Shown here piece by piece: positions 47,369 to 57,344 of a stretch of DNA of 64,000 nucleotides. Location: positions 62,001-126,000 of the forward strand of contig NZ_JANHDO010000005.1 in NCBI RefSeq assembly GCF_024494575.1. The letters are read 5' to 3'. Under the pieces are notes generated by a model that saw only the letters and a list, made by a program, of their open reading frames with translations, had not been told where the DNA came from and ran no database searches. Origin of the DNA: Halorubrum salinum (GTDB lineage: Archaea; Halobacteriota; Halobacteria; Halobacteriales; Haloferacaceae). Within the stretch, counting starts at the first letter, position 1; each line of letters opens with the position of its first letter. The translations under genes were made by a program, and so were the position numbers.

Positions 47369-48886
47369 TCAGGCGACCGTGTCTTCGAGCAGTTGGAGCG
47401 GGTGTCTGATCTCGTAGCCCGTGCCGTGTTCCATCTGCATCGCGCAGGTCGGACACTCGGTCATCCCCACGTCGCCCTCGGCGTCCTCCATGTGCTCGAA
47501 CATCTCCGCGCCGATCTCCATCGACTTCTCGTACTTCTCTTCTTTCCAGCCGTAGGTCCCGGAGATGCCGGAACAGGAGTCGCCGACGTCTTCCATCTCG
47601 ACGCCCTCCACGTCGCGGAACGTCTCGACGGCCTGCCGAGAGAGTCCCTGGTTGCGGGCGTGACACGGCGCGTGGTACGCGAACGACTGCTCGTCGGCGA
47701 GCTCGGTGTCCGCCAGCTCACCCTCCAGATCCTCGTGGATCCGGAGGTATTCGAGCGCCTCGAAGGTGTGCTCGGAGACGTCCTCGATCCCGTGGATGTC
47801 GAACAGTTCGGGGTACTCCTGTCGCAAGGAGAGCGAACAGGAGGTACACGACGCGATCACGTCCGCGCCCTCGCCTATCGCCTCGACGAGGTTCTCGACG
47901 TTCGTCTCCGCGTGTCTCCGGGCGTCTTTCAACATCCCGTTCGCGAACATCGGCGTCCCGGAGCACTTCTGGGGCGGCACCATGACCTCGTACCCGAAGT
48001 GCTCGTACACCCGCACCATGGCCTTGCCGACCTCTGGGGTGTTGTAGTTCGAGTAGCAGCCGTGGAAGTACGCCACCCGCTTGTCCGGGTTCTCGACCTG
48101 CGCGCCGCCGCGCTCGCGCCACCACTCGCGGAACGTCTGGGTGGCGAACTCGGGGAAGTCGCGCTCGCCGGCGATCCCGAGCACCTTCTCGCCGAGCGTC
48201 ATCGCGCCCGGGATCTTCGCCGCCGCGTTCGCCAGCCGCGGGACCTTGCTCGCGATGGAGGCGAAAAAGCGGTAGTTCGAGAGGATCCGATTGCGAACGT
48301 ACTCCCGCGAGAGCTTCTCCATCTGCTCTTCGACGAACTGCCCCCGCGCCTCGTTGTGCATCTGCGAGAGCGGCACAGAGGAGGGACACGCGGAGTCACA
48401 CCGCATGCAGTTCGAACACGACGTGATCGACTCGTCGATGTCGTGGTCGTCCTTGCGCTTGAGCCGCCACTGCTCCGGTCCCTGGAACTTCGGCCCCGGG
48501 AACTCCTCGTCGACCTCGGCGACCGGACAGGAGGTGTCACAGCTCGTGCACTTGTAACAGGAGTCCGCGCCCTCCCTCAGGTCGAGGTCGCCGCCGGGGA
48601 ACACGTCGACCGGGTCGTAGGCGTCGGGGTCGAGCTCGGCCGAATCGGAGCCGCCGGTCGCGCTCTCGACGCCGCCGTCGGTGGCGGCGCGGTCCGAAAG
48701 CCGCGCCGCGTCTCCCCCCGCCGAGTCCCCCTCGTCCGGGACGAAGATCGACGGCTGCTCGTCGCGGCCGACCCGGGGCACGCCCGGCCCCGGACGCGGC
48801 GTTTCGTCCGAGTCGTCGGTCGTCTCTCCCGGTTCGCCGGTCGTCTCTCTCCCGTCGTCCTCGTCGGTTCGTGTGTCTCGTGTCAT
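47369..48886 (-). CDS. glpC: Anaerobic-type glycerol-3-phosphate dehydrogenase subunit C
   Basis: This 505-residue subunit carries two 4Fe-4S motifs (CYKCTSCDTSCPV and CSNCMRCDSACPS) and two CCG domains (FHGCYSNYN, PQKCSGTP, CTSCSLSLRQEYP; APCHARNQG, SCSGISGTYG, ECPTCAMQMEHG). It anchors the GlpAB dimer to the membrane and passes electrons to menaquinone. The first 110 residues are an acidic Gly/Asp/Thr extension not found in bacterial GlpC. Its ATG overlaps the glpB stop (ATGA), so glpA, glpB and glpC form one operon. Confidence 0.92.
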   Translation of the reverse strand: MTRDTRTDEDDGRETTGEPGETTDDSDETPRPGPGVPRVGRDEQPSIFVPDEGDSAGGDAARLSDRAATDGGVESATGGSDSAELDPDAYDPVDVFPGGDLDLREGADSCYKCTSCDTSCPVAEVDEEFPGPKFQGPEQWRLKRKDDHDIDESITSCSNCMRCDSACPSSVPLSQMHNEARGQFVEEQMEKLSREYVRNRILSNYRFFASIASKVPRLANAAAKIPGAMTLGEKVLGIAGERDFPEFATQTFREWWRERGGAQVENPDKRVAYFHGCYSNYNTPEVGKAMVRVYEHFGYEVMVPPQKCSGTPMFANGMLKDARRHAETNVENLVEAIGEGADVIASCTSCSLSLRQEYPELFDIHGIEDVSEHTFEALEYLRIHEDLEGELADTELADEQSFAYHAPCHARNQGLSRQAVETFRDVEGVEMEDVGDSCSGISGTYGWKEEKYEKSMEIGAEMFEHMEDAEGDVGMTECPTCAMQMEHGTGYEIRHPLQLLEDTVA

Positions 48887-50262
48887 TCGTTCGCCTCCGT
48901 CGCCGCCTCTCGTCCGGCCGTCACGCCGGTCGCGAGCGACACCCCGCTCGCGGATTTCTCTCTCGCCACGTCCGCGCCGCCGACGACCCCGCCGGCCGCG
49001 AAGACGTTCTCGTACTGTACCCCCCCGTCCGCGTCCAGCGGCCGACACCGCTCGTCGGGACGCACTCCGAACCGGGCGTACGGCTGGTCGCCGAACGCGT
49101 CGTCGACGAACCAGTCGTAGCGGTCCGCCGGCTGGTCGACGTGCAGGTCGAAGACGGGCTCGCGGACGCCCTCTCGGTCGGAGTCGAGCCCCTTGCCCAC
49201 GAGTCCGCCCGTCGCCAGCACGAACGCGTCCGCGCCGTACGGCGTCTCCCGGCCCTTCCGGTCGACCGAGACGGTCTCGATCCGCCCGTCTGCGGCCGCG
49301 TCGATCCCCACGACGGGGTTGCCGGTCTCGAACCGGACGCCGGCGTCGGCGAGCGCGTCGTACAGCCGGTCTTCGAGCCGGAGCCCCGGCAGGCTCGGCG
49401 GCCCCATCGGAATCTCGAACACGTCCGCGCCGAGCCGGTCGGCGAGCTCGGCGCGGACCTCGTCGCCGCGGTCGTCGCCGAGGAACGCCGGGAACCCCAC
49501 GCGGTCGACGCGCTCGACGCCGCCCGCCTCGTCTTCGGCGTCGTGGAGGTGCGGCGCGACCGCCCTCGCGAGCGCCTCGCGAGCGGGCGTCCCCTCGATC
49601 TCCTCGTCGTGGTCGAGCGCCTTCGCGACCCGCGTCACCTTCGTGTCGGCGCGGAACGCCTCCGCGAACTCGACTTCCGCGCCGGCGACGTCGAACGGGA
49701 CGCCGGCGGCCTCCAGCCGCCCCGCGAACGCCCGCGCGTCGTACTCCGTGAGCGACCGGAACCCGACGATGAGCGTCGGCCGCGGGTCGCTCGCGAGTCC
49801 CGCCTCGGCGGACGCGGGGTACCGCGCGGTCGGCTTCACGCTCCCGCCGAACGTCGGAACGAGGGCGTTGCGGTCGGTGTGGCCCCCGCGGTAGGCGTCG
49901 CCGGCGAGGTCGTCGAAGAGCGCGAGCCCCTCGCGGAGCGCGTCCGCGCCGACGATCCGGTACGGATGCGAGTCGGGAAGCCGTTCGATCCCCTCGAACG
50001 GGTCGGAAAGCGGCCCCTCCGGGTCCGGCCACTCGTCGCGGTCGAGTTCGCGGCCCGCCGTCGGCGGCCCCTCTCGGAGCGGCGTCGCGGGCTCGGTCGC
50101 CGGGACGTAGCCGAGCGCGTCGATCAGCCCGGAGGCCTGCCGGAGCGTGCTCGACTTGTGCGAGACGAGCCGCACGTCCGCGCCCTCGCGGGCCGCCGCG
50201 ACCGCCGCCGCGACCGCCGCTAGGCCGCCGCCGACGACGAGCACGTCGCTATCGATCGCCAT
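48883..50262 (-). CDS. glpB: Anaerobic-type glycerol-3-phosphate dehydrogenase subunit B
   Basis: This 459-residue flavoprotein starts with [32 protein letters not shown] and has the GlpB phrases [11 protein letters not shown] and [19 protein letters not shown], closing with [19 protein letters not shown]. It binds FAD or FMN and works with GlpA to pass electrons from glycerol-3-phosphate. It overlaps glpA by 14 bases at its start and glpC at its end, so the three proteins are probably made in fixed ratio. Confidence 0.92.
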
Positions 50263-52030
50263 CGGTCACCCCGTCCGTCGCGGCGTTCTCGCCGACCCGG
50301 CCGCCGTCGGCCGCGGCGGTTCCGGCGGGTTCGGAGCCGTCCGAGCCGGCCGCGTCGGCGTCGGCACCGGCGTCGAACGCGCCGAAGTCCACCGAGCCGT
50401 CGAGGCTCGCCGGGTCGCCGTCGCGGTTCATCGTCGTCGCGTGCAGCAGGTGGTTCAACATCGCCTGCGAGAGCTGCCGGCCCCACAGCGCGTGCCGCTG
50501 TCCCTTCCAGCGCTCCTGATACAGCTCGTCTTCGGCGTCGCGGACGACCGGTTCCGGGTACTCCCGAGCGAGCTCCGCGGCGATCCGGTGTGAGCAGAAC
50601 CCGCCCTGACAGTTGCCCATCGAGGCGCGGGTCCGGAGCCGGACCGCGTTGAGGTCGCTGCCTGCCTCGTCGATCGCGTCCCGCACCTCCGCGCGCGTGA
50701 CGCCCTCGCACTCGCAGACGACGGGGTTGGGGTCGACGCCCTCCAGCACGTCCTCGGCGCGCGACCCGAGCCGCTGGCCCGACCGCCGGGCGACCGGCGA
50801 CCGGAGGCCGAACTCGTCCATCAGCTCGTTCATCCGCGCCGGGCTCTCGGAGCCGGGCAGCGGCGCGTCGGCGGTGTCGCAGGTCGCCTCGTGGCCGAGC
50901 GCGTCGCAGACGTGATCGGAGATGGACTCCGCCATCATCCGGTAGGTGGTGAGCTTCCCGCCGACGATGGTCGTCATCCCCGGGAGGTCGTCGCGGTCGC
51001 CGTGGTCCAAGAGGAAGTAGTCGCGCGTGATGTCGGTCGGGTCCTCGGTGCCCGTGCCCGGCGGCTCGTACAGCGGCCGGACGCCCCAGAACGACCGGAG
51101 CGTCCGGGCGTTCTTGAGCTCCGGCACCAGCTCGGAGAGCGTCTCGATCATCAGGTCGACCTCCCAGTCCTCCTCGGGGTAGTCCTCGGGGTCGTCGACC
51201 TCCTCGTCGGTCGTTCCGAGGATGCAGGCGGTCTCGTGGGGAACGATTATGTCGGCGTCGCCCTTCGGCCGGCAGCGGTTGATCACGGTGTCGACCTGCC
51301 GGGTGTTCATCACCGTCATCACCCCCTTCGAGGGGCGTACCTCCACGTCGACGCCGGCCATCTCGCCGACGTTGCCCGCCCACGCGCCGGTGGCGTTGAC
51401 CACGTGGCGCGCGCGGATCTCCTCCGTCGCCCCCGGCTCGCGGTGGACGCGCTTGCCGGGGCCCGTCTCGTGTTCGATCTCGACGCCGACGACCTCGCCG
51501 TTCTCGACGAGCACGTCGGTGACCGGCGCGTGGGTCTCGATCCGCGCGCCGTGCTCGCGGGCGTCGGCCGCGTTCGACACGCAGAGCCGGAACGGGTCGA
51601 CCGCGCCGTCGGGTAACGCGATCGCCTTCTCCACGTCTCGCGCGAGGTACGGCTCGCGTCGGCGAGCCTCGTCGCCGTCGATCACCTCCGCAGGGATGTC
51701 ACACGCGCGACACCCCTCCAGTTTCTCCTGGAAGTACTCCTCCGAGTCCTCCGGTCGCTTCACGAACAGCCCGCCGGTCTCCTCGACGCAGTGGGCCGCG
51801 ATGTCGCGGAGCACGCGGTTCTCCTCGATACACTCGCGGGCGCTCTTCTGGTCTGAGACGGCGTACCGCCCCCCGCTGTGTAACAGTCCGTGCATGCGCC
51901 CCGTCGTCCCGTGCGTCAGGTTCCCCTTCTCGACGAGGACCGCCTCCAGCCCCCGCCGCGCAAGGTCCCTGACGACGCCGCATCCCGTCGAACCCCCACC
52001 GACGACGACGACGTCCACCTGTCTGTCCAT
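50249..52030 (-). CDS. glpA: Anaerobic-type glycerol-3-phosphate dehydrogenase subunit A
   Basis: This 593-residue catalytic subunit oxidises glycerol-3-phosphate to dihydroxyacetone phosphate. It shows [55 protein letters not shown] and [12 protein letters not shown]. The C-terminal BFD-like domain has the Cys set [13 protein letters not shown] and MGNCQGGFC for a [2Fe-2S] site. The last 50 residues are a low-complexity acidic tail. ATG at 52030 was chosen; a GTG eight codons upstream is also in frame. It is the first gene of the operon. Confidence 0.94.
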
Positions 52031-52438
52031 GCGTATCGCTTGGACCCTGCCCACTTTACTTTATCTCCTACCTACTACCGCGGGTAACGATACGAGTTAT
52101 TCATATAGGTTGTCGGGCAGAGTCACCGAGAAGATTATATACTGTCTTTTTCATACGGCGCTCAATCGAGATTTTAACGGGAAGTTTATTATGGTAGTAC
52201 GTTATGTTCACGAACGGCGTGGTAGCTTCCGTGAAGATATGTCGCGTCGGCGATGGCGACGTGCTCGCGTTCGGGCGACGAGTCGGTCTCGCCGCCGAAC
52301 GCGGGGTCTGCGGCGAACGCCGCAGGGGGGACGCCGCGGCGTGTTCCGGACGGTGGCGGTGGTCCGGTCGACCACCGCGACGCCGTTTGCGACCGTCGCC
52401 GTCGAGACCGGACCAGCGCCACAGGAGGGATCAAACAC
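52031..52438. promoter_or_regulatory. Divergent glpA / glpK control region (408 bases)
   Basis: This AT-rich spacer holds the promoters of both glycerol transcripts. For glpA, the minus strand has CTATATGA at 52101-52108 and a GATAAAG box at 52060-52066. For glpK, the plus strand has GATTATATACTG near 52133 and GTTTATTATGG near 52186, both far from the ATG, giving a leader of about 200-280 bases. GTTC-AC-GAAC near 52206 is a short inverted repeat. A Shine-Dalgarno GGAGG lies 11 bases before the glpK ATG. Binding by a GlpR-type regulator is likely but not shown. Confidence 0.6.
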
Positions 52439-53968
52439 ATGACACAGTACGTCGGTGCGATAGACCAGGGGACGACTGGCACCCGCTTTATGGTGTTCGA
52501 CCACGGCGGGCAGGTCGTCGCGAACGCTTACGAACAACACGAACAGATCTACCCCAATCCCGGCTGGGTCGAACACGACCCGATCGAGATCTGGGAGAAC
52601 ACGCAGCAGGTGGTCCTCGACGGCCTCGCGGACGCGGGGCTCGAAGCGGACCAGCTCGACGCGATCGGGATCACGAACCAGCGCGAGACGACGATCGTCT
52701 GGGACAAGGACTCCGGCAAGCCGGTCCACAACGCCTTAGTCTGGCAGGACCGTCGGACGACCGACCGCGTCGAGGAACTGCAGGAGGCGGACATGGTCGA
52801 GGAGATCCGCGAGAAGACCGGCCTCGAAGCAGACGCGTACTTCTCCGCGACCAAGACCGAGTGGATCCTCGACAACGCGGAGCCGCTCAAGATGCAGAGC
52901 TCCCGCGGCGGCGACCTCCGCGACCGCGCCCGCGACGGCGAGCTGGTGATGGGGACGATCGACTCGTGGCTCATCTATAACCTCACGGGCAACCACATCA
53001 CGGACGTCACCAACGCCTCCCGGACGATGCTGTACAACATCCGGGACTTGGAGTGGGACGACGAACTGCTGGAGGAGTTCGACGTGCCGAAGCAGATGGT
53101 GCCCGAAGTACGCCCCTCCTCGGACGAGGAGTACTACGGCCACACCGACGCGGACGGCTTCCTCGGCGAGGAGGTCCCCGTCGCCGGCGCGCTGGGCGAC
53201 CAGCAGGCCGCGCTGTTCGGGCAGACCTGCTTCGACGAGGGCGACGCCAAGAACACGTACGGCACCGGCTCCTTCTACCTGATGAACACGGGCACCGACG
53301 CCGTCGAGTCCGACCACGGACTCCTGACGACCATCGGCTTCCAGATGTCCGGCGAGCCGGTTCAGTACGCGCTCGAAGGCTCGATCTTCATCACCGGTGC
53401 CGCGATCGAGTGGTTAGAGGACGTCGACCTGATCAACAACGCCGCACAGACCGCAGAGCTCGCTCGGTCGGTCGATTCGACCGACGGCGTCTACATGGTC
53501 CCGGCGTTCACGGGGCTCGGCGCGCCCCACTGGGACGGTCGCGCCCGCGGCACCATCGTCGGGATGACCCGGGGCACGAGCAAGGAACACATCGTCCGCG
53601 CCACGCTCGAATCGATCGCCTACCAGACGCGCGACGTCGCGGAGGCGATGGAGGCCGACTCCGGCGTGGAGACGACGAGCCTCCGCGTCGACGGCGGCGC
53701 GGTGAAGAACAACTTCCTCTGTCAGCTCCAGTCCGACATCATCCAGACGGACATCGCCCGACCGGAAGTCGACGAGACGACCGCGCTCGGCTCCGCGTAC
53801 GCCGCCGGGCTCGCCGTCGGCTACTGGGACACCGTCGACGAACTCCGCGACAACTGGCAGGTCGACCGCGAGTTCACGCCCGAAAAGAGCCAGTCGGAGG
53901 TCGACCCGCTGTACGACCGCTGGGGCGACGCCGTCGAGAAGTCGCTCGACTGGGCACAGGAGGAGTAG
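52439..53968 (+). CDS. glpK: Glycerol kinase
   Basis: This 509-residue FGGY-family enzyme phosphorylates glycerol with ATP, committing it to the cell. It has YVGAIDQGTTGTRFMVFDHGG, the catalytic Asp region GALGDQQAALFGQTCFDEGDAKNTYGTG, and AFTGLGAPHWDGRARGTIVGMTRGTSKEHIVRATLE. All parts match haloarchaeal glycerol kinase, the entry of their glycerol catabolism. ATG at 52439 follows a GGAGGGA ribosome site, one of few in this window. The membrane protein gene begins three bases after the stop. Confidence 0.95.
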   Translation: MTQYVGAIDQGTTGTRFMVFDHGGQVVANAYEQHEQIYPNPGWVEHDPIEIWENTQQVVLDGLADAGLEADQLDAIGITNQRETTIVWDKDSGKPVHNALVWQDRRTTDRVEELQEADMVEEIREKTGLEADAYFSATKTEWILDNAEPLKMQSSRGGDLRDRARDGELVMGTIDSWLIYNLTGNHITDVTNASRTMLYNIRDLEWDDELLEEFDVPKQMVPEVRPSSDEEYYGHTDADGFLGEEVPVAGALGDQQAALFGQTCFDEGDAKNTYGTGSFYLMNTGTDAVESDHGLLTTIGFQMSGEPVQYALEGSIFITGAAIEWLEDVDLINNAAQTAELARSVDSTDGVYMVPAFTGLGAPHWDGRARGTIVGMTRGTSKEHIVRATLESIAYQTRDVAEAMEADSGVETTSLRVDGGAVKNNFLCQLQSDIIQTDIARPEVDETTALGSAYAAGLAVGYWDTVDELRDNWQVDREFTPEKSQSEVDPLYDRWGDAVEKSLDWAQEE

Positions 53969-53971
53969 ATC

Positions 53972-55060
53972 ATGAGTGGACTCCTCTTGACGGTCCCGGT
54001 CATCGGGATGCCGGTCGAGCAGTTCCTGCTCCTCATCATCACCGCGCTCGCGGGCGGCGCGTTCGGTGCCGCGATCGGCGCGCTGCCGGCGTTCGTCTTC
54101 ACGGGCTTCGTCGTGTTCCTCGGTGAGGGCGTCGCAATTCTGCAACGGCAAGTGACCGGCCAGATCGGTGCTATCGAACCCGGACAGCTCGCCACCGGCA
54201 TCACCGGCGTCCTCGGCTTCGGGGCCATCACCGGGCCGCACATCGCGTTCGCGGGCGGCGTGGCCGCCTCCGCGTACGCCGGCAAGAAGTACCCCGAGAT
54301 GGAGCCCGCCGGGTGGGACTACCACTTCGGGAAGAACATCCTGTACGCGTTCGGCACGAAGCCGGACATCCTCGCCGTGGGCGCGATATTCGGCGTGCTC
54401 GGCGTCGTCATCAACCAGCTGTCCGCGAGCCTGCTCGTCGTGAGCGGCACCGGCGTGACCGACTCCATCGCGCTCACGGTCGTGTTGAGCGCGTTCATCG
54501 CCCGGGCCGCGTTCGGGTATCCGATCGTCGGATCGCCGAACGGCTCCGGTTACCTCGACATGTCGCCGTTCGAAAACGAAGAGCCGCATCCGCAGGCGGA
54601 CGGCGGCCCGGAAGAACACGCCGGGCGGCTCGCGACGGAGCCGTGGCTCCCGCAGCAGTACAAGTGGCTGAACGTCGCCGTCATCGGCGTCGTCGGGGGC
54701 CTTCTCGGCGGCTACATCTGGATCCAGACGGGGAGCATCTTCCTCGGCTACGCGATCTCGGCGATGAGCCTGCTGTTCTTGCAGCTCGGCGTCGAGAACT
54801 TCCCGGTGACCCATCACATCACCCTGATCGGTGCCGTCGGCGCGGTCGTCGTCGACCCCATCGCCGGGAGCGTCGTCGCGCTGCTCGCCGCCGGCGCGTT
54901 CGGTGCCGTGAGCGGCCTCCTCGGCGAGGTCACGCAGCGGCTGTTCTACTCGCACTCCGGCACGCACGTCGACCCGCCCGCGATGGCTATCGCCATCGCG
55001 ATGGTCGCCGTGGCGATCCTCTCGATCCTCGGGATACTACCCAACGCGGGCTACCTCTGA
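53972..55060 (+). CDS. Polytopic membrane protein of the glycerol locus (haloarchaeal GlpX-type, putative glycerol transporter)
   Basis: This 362-residue protein has about ten hydrophobic helices, a hydrophilic loop at about 195-230 with ENEEPHPQADGGPEEH, and repeated Gly/Ala-rich helix starts such as ALAGGAFGAAIGALPAF. It begins three bases after glpK, so it must belong to the glycerol operon. In Haloferax the same place holds a membrane protein called GlpX, suggested to take up glycerol; it is unrelated to the fructose bisphosphatase GlpX. It is not like the aquaporin-type facilitator GlpF: no NPA motif is seen. A transport role is an inference from context. Confidence 0.8.
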   Translation: MSGLLLTVPVIGMPVEQFLLLIITALAGGAFGAAIGALPAFVFTGFVVFLGEGVAILQRQVTGQIGAIEPGQLATGITGVLGFGAITGPHIAFAGGVAASAYAGKKYPEMEPAGWDYHFGKNILYAFGTKPDILAVGAIFGVLGVVINQLSASLLVVSGTGVTDSIALTVVLSAFIARAAFGYPIVGSPNGSGYLDMSPFENEEPHPQADGGPEEHAGRLATEPWLPQQYKWLNVAVIGVVGGLLGGYIWIQTGSIFLGYAISAMSLLFLQLGVENFPVTHHITLIGAVGAVVVDPIAGSVVALLAAGAFGAVSGLLGEVTQRLFYSHSGTHVDPPAMAIAIAMVAVAILSILGILPNAGYL

Positions 55061-55331: not shown

Positions 55332-56495
55332 GTGAACATCGACGACCGGATCGAGCGCCGGCTCGGATACGACATCGGTGCCGGCGTCCTCGTCGACCTT
55401 GAGGCCGTTTCGCCGGTCTCCCACGTCGACTCGCCCGTCGGCCGGGGACCGGCCTTCGAGCGGCTGCTCGACGTCTTCGAGCCGGCCTTCTCCGGCGGGC
55501 TCCCCCCGAGCGCCTACATTCACGGCCCGAAGGGGAGCGGGAAGTCCGCGATCGTCTCTGCGCTGTTCGAGCGGCTCGCGGCGCACAGCGGCCCGCGACG
55601 GGCGATCCAGACGTCGACCCGAGCGATCGAGCCGACGCTTCCGGGGTTCGTCTACGTCGACGCGCGGCTGTCGGCCACGCGGTTCCGGCTGTACCACGCC
55701 ACGCTCGACGCGGTGAGCGACGAACCGGTGCCGGAACACGGCGTCAGCACCGAGGGGCTCGCAGAGAAGCTCCGAAGCGCGATGCGGACCGGCCCGGACC
55801 TCGTCGTCGCGGTCGACCACGTGAACGAACCGGAGACGCCCGATCCGATCACCGTCGTCGACTGGCTCGACGACGTGGGCGGCGGCATCGTCCCGGTGTG
55901 TCTGGGTCGGCAGTCCCCCGACGCGATCGAGTGGGAGGTGTCGGAGTCGGTCGCCTTCGAGCCGTACCGCCGGCACGTCCTCGTCGAGCTTCTGACCAGC
56001 CGGTGTTCGACCGGCCTCGGCCGCGACGCGGTCAGTCACGACCAGATCCGCGAGGTCAGCGAGTGGGCGGAGGGAGACGCCCACGACGCGCTCGCGGCGA
56101 TCACGGGGGCGGCGGTCACGGCCGAGCGCGAGGGAGCGTCGACGATCCGCCCGCGCGACCTCGACGCGGGCATCGAGGAGATCACGAAGCCCGGCGTCGC
56201 GCTCGGCCGCGTCCTCTCGCTTTCGGAGAGCCGGAAGCGCCTCCTCTACGAACTCGTGAGCCTTCCCGAGTCGAACCGGAAGTCGGTGAGCGCCGCGACC
56301 GAGACGATCGCCTCGCGGCCGACCGTCGACCTGTCGGCCTCGACCGTGCGCCGCGTCCTCTACGAGCTGGCCGACGCCGGCCTCCTCGACCGAGTGACCG
56401 TCGCGCGAAGCGACGGCAAGGGACGTCCCCCGAGCCGGCTCGTTCCGCGGTTCCCCACGCTCGTGTTTCGCGAGCTGTTCGACCGTCCCCGCTAG
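55332..56495 (+). CDS. Orc1/Cdc6-like AAA+ protein, divergent
   Basis: This 387-residue protein has an AAA+ domain with Walker A GPKGSGKS (65-72) and a weak Walker B, LVVAVDHVNE, where the Asp (162) is followed by His rather than Glu. The lid helices follow, and the C terminus holds a winged helix (STVRRVLYELADAGLLDRVTVARSDGKGRPPSRLVPRFP). The layout follows archaeal Orc1/Cdc6 initiators, but the loss of the catalytic Glu and a short N terminus suggest a non-initiator or plasmid-type relative. No origin repeats are seen around it. The start is a GTG. Confidence 0.72.
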   Translation: MNIDDRIERRLGYDIGAGVLVDLEAVSPVSHVDSPVGRGPAFERLLDVFEPAFSGGLPPSAYIHGPKGSGKSAIVSALFERLAAHSGPRRAIQTSTRAIEPTLPGFVYVDARLSATRFRLYHATLDAVSDEPVPEHGVSTEGLAEKLRSAMRTGPDLVVAVDHVNEPETPDPITVVDWLDDVGGGIVPVCLGRQSPDAIEWEVSESVAFEPYRRHVLVELLTSRCSTGLGRDAVSHDQIREVSEWAEGDAHDALAAITGAAVTAEREGASTIRPRDLDAGIEEITKPGVALGRVLSLSESRKRLLYELVSLPESNRKSVSAATETIASRPTVDLSASTVRRVLYELADAGLLDRVTVARSDGKGRPPSRLVPRFPTLVFRELFDRPR

Positions 56496-56651
56496 CGCCC
56501 CACGGCCCTCGGCAGCGCCCCACCGCCCCCGGTCATCCTCTGCCGACCGCGGTCGTCATCCGCCGACCGCGGTAGCCCTCCGACAACCGCGGTGGCTCCC
56601 TCGTTCGCCGCCGAACGCAAGACAGTTGCCTCGGTCGCTCCGATCCGCGGT

Positions 56652-57344
56652 ATGGTTCCGCCCCTCGCGTTAGACATCGACGGGACGCTGACGACGGCGA
56701 GCGGCCGGATCGACTCGCGCGTCTTCGAACTGCTCCCCGACTGGGACGCGCCGGTCGTGTTCGCGACGGGCAAGGCGTTCCCGTATCCGGTCGCGCTGGC
56801 GCACTTCCTCGGCCGCCCGGAGACCGTGATCGCGGAGAACGGCGGGGTCGCGTACGTCGACGGCGACACGTCGATCCTCGGTGACCCGGCCGCGCCCCGC
56901 GCCGTCGTCGAGGCGTTCGAGGCGCGCGGCGGCGAGATCGGCTGGGGGGACGGCGACACCGTCAACCGCTGGCGCGAGACGGAGGTCGCGCTGTCTCTCG
57001 ACGCCGACGAACGCCTGTTGCGCGAGGTCGCGGCCGACGCCGACGGCGTCGAGGTCGTCGACACCGGCTACGCGTACCACGTCAAATCGACGGACGTGAG
57101 CAAGGGACAAGCGCTCGAACGGGTCGCCGACGCGCTCGGGCTCGCCACGGACGGCTTCGTCGCCGTCGGCGACAGCGAGAACGACGCCTCCACGTTCGCC
57201 GTCGCCGGCGAATCGTACGCCGTCGCCAACGCGGACGCGACCGCTCGCGACGCCGCAGACACCGTCTTAGCGGAGTCGTACATGGACGGGACGGCAGGGC
57301 TGTTGCGAAGGCTCCGCGAGCGCACAGAGCGAGGGCCGAAGTGA
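56652..57344 (+). CDS. HAD phosphatase, archaeal phosphoglycolate phosphatase type
   Basis: This 230-residue HAD hydrolase has motif I LALDIDGTLTTASGRI, a Cof-type cap, Lys in YHVKSTDVSKGQALERVA, and motif IV GFVAVGDSENDASTFAVAGESYAVANAD. It resembles the archaeal phosphoglycolate phosphatase group, which removes the by-product of DNA repair or Rubisco-like reactions. Sucrose-phosphate-phosphatase-like members look similar, so substrate is not certain. ATG at 56652 starts at motif I; 20 upstream codons in frame are not similar. Confidence 0.87.
   Translation: MVPPLALDIDGTLTTASGRIDSRVFELLPDWDAPVVFATGKAFPYPVALAHFLGRPETVIAENGGVAYVDGDTSILGDPAAPRAVVEAFEARGGEIGWGDGDTVNRWRETEVALSLDADERLLREVAADADGVEVVDTGYAYHVKSTDVSKGQALERVADALGLATDGFVAVGDSENDASTFAVAGESYAVANADATARDAADTVLAESYMDGTAGLLRRLRERTERGPK

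Follow-up and report, generated by a model that had tools for sequence, protein, structure and literature searches.

Directly behind the glycerol kinase gene glpK, the Halorubrum DNA analyzed here (a stretch of 64,000 nucleotides, hereafter the window) carries a gene for a membrane protein, and the locus raises the question of what this protein does beside the kinase and whether it could be the route by which glycerol enters the cell. The open reading frame, at 53972–55060 on the forward strand, is real and intact; it starts with ATG, and its 362 codons encode 362 residues of a predicted facilitator for glycerol or small polyols. It begins three bases past glpK, as a sequence-only reading of this DNA had stated: the glpK stop codon TAG occupies 53966–53968, the trinucleotide ATC follows, and the ATG of the membrane gene stands at 53972. 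The sequence GAGGAG at 53960–53965 on the same strand, inside the 3' end of glpK, is its likely ribosome-binding site. The kinase gene (52439–53968, forward strand) encodes a 509-residue protein that scores 716.5 bits against NCBIfam TIGR01311, for which the cut-off is 590.35, and its start is likely the ATG at 52439, preceded by AGGAGGG, rather than position 52253 of the mechanically called frame. Divergent from glpK, on the opposite strand, lie glpA for subunit A of glycerol-3-phosphate dehydrogenase (50249–52054; Pfam DAO and Fer2_BFD), glpB (48883–50262; Pfam FAD_binding_2, named from its position and from kinship in glp clusters), and a glpC-like gene with a provisional start (47369–48886; Pfam CCG and Fer4_8 on 47369–48829). 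Neither dhaK nor dhaL was found in the 64-kb window.

The membrane protein matched no Pfam family and no NCBIfam family at E ≤ 1, and a search of solved structures by sequence returned nothing meaningful (best E 0.92). When 70 members of its family were scanned for known families, the matches were scattered and weak, the commonest being RTX in 19 members with a best E of 7.4e-4, and we took these as chance. An identity as a major facilitator superfamily (MFS) protein was rejected, with no Pfam match at E ≤ 1, nine long helices as against about 12, and Foldseek rows for MFS proteins that reached a TM of at most 0.20. Membership of the MIP/aquaglyceroporin family was also rejected, as the protein has neither a PF00230 match nor the two NPA motifs; that it carries no aquaporin NPA motif had been noted from the sequence, and none occurs in the translation. 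The tripeptide alone is no test, however, because the string NPA occurs in 4 of 96 family members. A PF00230 protein was not found in the same genome, and the window protein has no Pfam match to the urea transporters (UT; PF03253) or to the Amt/Rh proteins (PF00909).

The family was present in 46 of 59 relatives, and the membrane gene lies directly behind glpK on the same strand in all 30 of the relatives' loci examined. The same adjacency was found at 70 of 80 named loci drawn from GTDB, and this synteny survey bears out the earlier claim that the gene is conserved beside glpK. Two further named loci (L052 and L080) do have glpK upstream of the gene and in the same orientation, with a shortened match, and one locus (L066) begins at a contig end. 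Seven are not behind glpK: three of the Halonotius/Halohasta branch (L083, L084, and L098) and four from bacteria (L082, L089, L092, and L106). In the last of these, from Salinivenus, a glycerol-3-phosphate-dehydrogenase-like gene and glpK lie directly beyond the membrane gene on the facing strand. Nine such loci were traced to their genomes, and all eight underlying genomes carry glpK or part of it somewhere. Homologues adjoining glpK in Haloarcula are 50–56% identical to the window protein. In Haloferax volcanii the homologue beside glpK is probably HVO_1542, going by a published numbering with glpK as HVO_1541 and dhaKLM as HVO_1544–1546, although the paper in question also uses HVO_1542 once for glpK. 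No relatives were confirmed on viral contigs.

The association also holds at the level of whole genomes. Among 391 sampled Halobacteria genomes, with glpK counted at E ≤ 1e-100, the family was found in 305 (including three, G022, G326, and G337, with fragments only) and glpK in 342; 298 genomes have both, 7 the family only, 44 glpK only, and 42 neither. The family is thus present in 298 of 342 genomes with glpK compared with 7 of 49 without it, an odds ratio of 40.6, with kinship not corrected. Taken with the 30 loci out of 30 in which the gene stands behind glpK, this is far from chance. The glpK region was examined in 39 of the 44 genomes with glpK only. In two of them a MIP gene directly follows glpK, in one a 12-helix open reading frame lies 508 nucleotides behind it, and nearly all others show no membrane gene directly behind glpK in a heuristic list of frames of at least 100 residues. 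The family protein is therefore not needed for owning glpK. In G384, which has glpK and no family gene, the opposite strand downstream of glpK carries a glycerophosphodiesterase gene and ABC-transporter genes for an ATPase and two permeases (L155, 5705–9281); they are possibly another uptake route for glycerol compounds.

Within Halorubrum (a genus assignment made by way of named relatives), the slot behind glpK is occupied by either of two membrane gene lineages. Of 34 genomes of this genus with a match, 22 were compared, giving 14 type-A loci (L001–L014) and 8 type-B loci (L023–L030). The membrane proteins share 49% identity across the two groups (45–53) and 83 and 88% inside each; for GlpK the figures are about 94% across the groups, and 95 and 93% inside each. 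Judged by these identities, a single gene of the glp cluster appears to have been exchanged in place while the kinase was kept. The slot pattern would thus amount to a natural experiment, in which the importer is exchanged around a constant kinase.

A MIP (GlpF-family) gene was found in 20 of the 391 sampled genomes, and in at least four of these (G102, G150, G022, and G289) it lies directly behind glpK, with 3–75 nucleotides between the match ends. In G022 (L131), where the MIP gene takes this place, all that is left of the family gene is a C-terminal remnant of 108 residues about 5 kb downstream. We regard a constant kinase with an exchanged neighbor, where one of the options is a channel family with glycerol-conducting members, as the best evidence that the occupants of the slot share a job. 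Across the 342 glpK genomes, 13 have both the family and a MIP gene (the family gene of G022 being the fragment), 6 have MIP only, 285 the family only, and 38 neither. A strict rule of either MIP or this family was considered and found weak, with a Fisher p of 0.02 that is uncorrected for kinship and with both genes in 13 genomes. Where there is much glycerol, passive diffusion is reported to account for most of the influx, and an E. coli glpF mutant is described as growing well (PMC6912568). A channel that is optional at high glycerol could explain the 38 genomes with neither gene.

A confident AlphaFold model of the window protein was obtained from the 70-member alignment (pLDDT 89.1, pTM 0.89), with nine long helices, two short ones, and a 4-residue turn; the previous count of about ten helices was thus roughly right. 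A second model, of the Salinivenus protein, which is 48% identical to the window protein, reached a pLDDT of 86.8 and a pTM of 0.87, although the two are not wholly independent, as the alignment behind the second overlaps with the first, exactly or nearly, in 25 haloarchaeal and four bacterial rows. Comparison of the window model by VIA-align placed urea transporters in rows 1–10 of the 50 listed with Z of 7.5–8.0, a Z of about 8 being middling for a helical bundle and, according to the tool's note, one that can reflect a common arrangement. Amt/Mep/Rh proteins made up 12 of the next 13 listed rows (Z 5.0–6.4). For the Salinivenus model, urea transporters filled rows 1–12 of 50 listed (Z 7.5–8.3), the next row was an ABC permease at 6.8, and the Amt rows were fewer and lower than for the window model. 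In both models the urea transporter rows aligned over 177–209 residues with an rmsd of 4.3–6.3. Foldseek gave no match at E ≤ 0.001 for either model; urea transporters had the highest probabilities for the Salinivenus model (0.95 and 0.77, with TM of 0.30–0.37), and none was among the top 50 for the window model. Profile-profile comparison by hhalign against UT or Amt gave no signal (probability 0.2%), but the UT-versus-Amt control gave none either (0.1%), so this test is blind. Urea transporters and Amt-type channels share a fold. That two models agree, and that they lead to two channel families of this shared fold, argues for more than a common arrangement, without being proof, and hints at a urea-channel-like structure for the family.

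The two halves of the protein appear to be related to each other. With 96 members, hhalign aligned the N-terminal and C-terminal halves over 66 columns with a score of 35.4 and a probability of 63%, and with 70 members the score was 39.7 and the probability 81–82%. As controls, 60 block shuffles scored no higher than 21.2 and the reversed half scored 14.9; no repeat was detected with a split that omitted helices T4–T5. The alignment pairs His-90 with His-282 and Asp-164 with Asp-334. The first element consists of the motif FGxxxGPHxxFAGG and helix 3 (residues 83–106; 54218–54289, forward strand) and follows a short helix; Phe-83, Gly-84, Pro-89, and Phe-93 are present in 96 of 96 members. Its C-terminal repeat-mate is the motif PVTHHxxL with helix 7 (residues 278–298; 54803–54865, forward strand), where Pro-278, Thr-280, His-281, and His-282 are equally constant. 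A third stretch (residues 319–337; 54926–54982, forward strand) holds Glu-319, Arg-323, His-332, and D334-P-P-A, again without exception. Across all 96 members, as far out as Rhodococcus, the unchanged residues include Pro-89, Asp-164, Thr-280, His-281, His-282, Glu-319, Arg-323, His-332, Asp-334, Pro-335, and Pro-336. Position 90 is histidine in 87 members and alanine in nine (L077, L085, L091, L094, L097, L101, L103, L105, and L107), in which SPA replaces GPH. A fully conserved histidine pair is thereby ruled out and cannot be essential to the family, so the first histidine would be dispensable or replaced in one branch.

These features invite comparison with three known channel families. 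To the urea transporters (UT/SLC14) the protein has its best structural resemblance in two models, as well as repeated halves and, on the reading favored below, a small uncharged polar solute; it differs in lacking a Pfam or profile-profile signal, in the low TM of the Salinivenus model, and in a C-terminal half that shows no helix equivalent to T1. Urea transporters proper gave a weak match in 1 of 97 haloarchaeal genomes and one above the cut-off in 0 of 97. The pore of AmtB carries a twin-His motif, which the repeat-related His-90 and His-282 recall, although the window protein has neither a Pfam match nor a profile signal to Amt/Mep/Rh proteins and the first histidine is alanine in part of the family. 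MIP proteins have two homologous halves with short helices, as does the window protein, but they have six helices, and the haloarchaeal MIP frames are about 256 residues long compared with 362 residues and nine long helices here; the likeness to GlpF extends to the slot behind glpK and to the same proposed job. Lysine and arginine lie mainly in loops T3–T4, T5–T6, and T8–T9 in archaeal, Bacteroidota-type, and actinobacterial members, and the loop before helix 7 has 0.3–0.9 of them per protein. For helices T4–T5 and T8–T9, as distinct from T1–T3, these charge counts would fit opposite orientations, as in inverted-repeat channels.

Taken together, these data lead us to consider it probable that this gene supplies the glp cluster with its glycerol entry protein, most likely a passive facilitator for small polyols that feeds GlpK. 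The protein would be a membrane-embedded channel some 360 residues long with two homologous halves, each contributing a short helix, a conserved loop (usually G-P-H90 in the first half and always P-V/A-T-H-H282 in the second), and a longer helix. The two loops may meet in the membrane to form a narrow polar pore, through which uncharged C3 polyols (glycerol, perhaps dihydroxyacetone and related diols) would pass down their gradient. GlpK, presumably translated from the same mRNA, would then trap glycerol as glycerol-3-phosphate for oxidation by GlpABC. In Haloquadratum, HQ1732A is described as co-transcribed with glpK (PMC5496347).

An ion-coupled transporter could equally have such invariant charged residues, and the strongest of the competing explanations is that the protein is an active glycerol symporter driven by H+ or Na+, with Asp-164, Glu-319, Arg-323, and Asp-334, all constant in the 96 members, as the coupling site. 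Active uptake would presumably pay off at low glycerol. We nevertheless think symport unlikely, as the closest structural resemblance of the models is to urea/ammonium-type channels and the place behind glpK is elsewhere taken by MIP genes, which belong to a channel family.

The genomic contexts of more distant relatives bear on the substrate. One paralogue (L246) has dhaK, dhaL, and a dhaM-like gene immediately after it, and dhaK and dhaL occur on the opposite strand within the fetched DNA at 6 of the 80 named loci. Another (L244, in G304) has second copies of glpA and glpB nearby, together with genes for a DeoR regulator, an FGGY kinase, and a PdxA-like protein; a further paralogue of the same genome (L254, G304 C5) is followed by PEP_hydrolase-like and UPF0261 genes. 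A Microbacterium relative on a plasmid record (34% identity, E 6e-11) immediately precedes glpK and a gene for a glycerol-3-phosphate dehydrogenase/oxidase, and a Rubrobacter relative (35%, E 1e-5) is near a DeoR/GlpR regulator, a transketolase, and an FGGY kinase. Rhodococcus relatives were reached via the Microbacterium protein with E of about 1e-11. In two of five Rhodococcus records the cluster contains genes for an aldehyde dehydrogenase and an NDMA-dependent alcohol dehydrogenase, and the relative sits between the latter and genes for an enoyl-CoA hydratase, a propionate-CoA-ligase-like protein, and an acrylyl-CoA reductase. Judged by gene content, the cluster reads like C3 diol oxidation through 3-hydroxypropionate; no papers on this Rhodococcus pathway were found.

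These contexts could mean that the main substrate is another small polyol or dihydroxyacetone and glycerol a secondary one, a reading for which the paralogue directly in front of dhaKLM, the six loci with dhaK and dhaL on the opposite strand, and the Rhodococcus and Rubrobacter relatives in other pathways all speak. For the window gene we find this still less likely than symport, as it adjoins glpK and glpABC with no dhaK or dhaL in the window, and glpK is the partner at most named loci. A glycerol entry function has evidence against it as well: 38 of the 342 glpK genomes have neither the family nor a MIP gene, seven of the 80 named loci are off glpK, and neither a polyol kinase nor a glp gene was found nearby at several of 20 paralogue loci, at L083, L089, and L092, or at a Haladaptatus plasmid copy. 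That the protein is instead a membrane anchor or regulator that holds GlpK at the membrane and transports nothing would suit its tight linkage with glpK, and one paper, going by its title, concerns the facilitator as an activator of E. coli glycerol kinase. This is very improbable, as relatives adjoin dhaKLM or C3-acid genes where glpK is not the neighbor and many of the invariant positions fall within the membrane helices or beside them.

A glycerol uptake role, which the sequence-only reading had proposed, is thus the best-supported one, through genomic linkage, the MIP gene in the same slot, and the C3-polyol and dihydroxyacetone contexts of some paralogues, whereas the transport system is, as a prediction, not undescribed. 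Anderson et al. (2011; PMC3102087) predicted that a family of haloarchaeal membrane proteins encoded next to glpK are glycerol transporters, and report bacterial homologues, many of them near glycerol or propanediol genes; the prediction is repeated in PMC3402447 (2012) and repeated or echoed in PMC5496347 (2017). In the open-access literature we found no experimental proof of glycerol transport by the family. The proteins of that family (rrnAC0550, NJ7G_1712, and probably HQ1732A) are of the same kind, uncharacterized membrane proteins adjoining glpK, and no difference from them was seen when the window protein was compared via the Haloarcula and Haloquadratum members adjoining glpK in our alignment (L073, L075, L090, and L078). 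The window gene is therefore one more member of the family predicted in 2011, and it probably imports glycerol. New here are the urea-channel-like structural hypothesis, for which the models provide hints, and stronger genomic evidence from co-occurrence, slot exchange, and the contexts of relatives.

More tentatively, and with somewhat less than even confidence, we suggest that the family as a whole may be one of polyol channels independent of the aquaporins and distant structural cousins of the urea/ammonium channels, through which haloarchaea, some bacteria of the Balneolota/Rhodothermota type, and actinobacteria would move glycerol, dihydroxyacetone, and C3 compounds related to them. The repeat-related loops GPH90 and THH282 would lie in the pore, and within the glp cluster these proteins and GlpF-type channels would be able to replace each other. 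Algal glycerol is a main carbon source in brines, and few haloarchaea have a GlpF-type gene. If the reading as a glycerol channel is right, the family would be the usual door for glycerol in haloarchaea, and a urea-channel-like architecture would be used for glycerol.

The bacterial copies from Balneolaceae, Salinivenus, and their relatives (L082, L089, L092, L106, and L182–L193) form two separate nests inside an archaeal part of the tree with moderate support, which suggests at least two transfers from haloarchaea to bacteria; in the class of the Salinivenus genome the family was found in 12 of 146 genomes. Haloferax sp. Q22 has two glpK genes (L071 and L086), each partnered by a membrane gene from a different branch of the family. 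In the window, a Cdc6-like AAA gene (55332–56495) follows the membrane gene, and such a gene is repeatedly found just downstream of glpK or of the pair of glpK and membrane gene (also at L131, L132, and L143). A gene for a HAD-type phosphatase with a DIDGTLT motif (56592–57344) likewise recurs near glpK (e.g. L138, L141, and L151), even at loci without the membrane gene, and a link of this phosphatase to glycerol or glycolate phosphate is possible.
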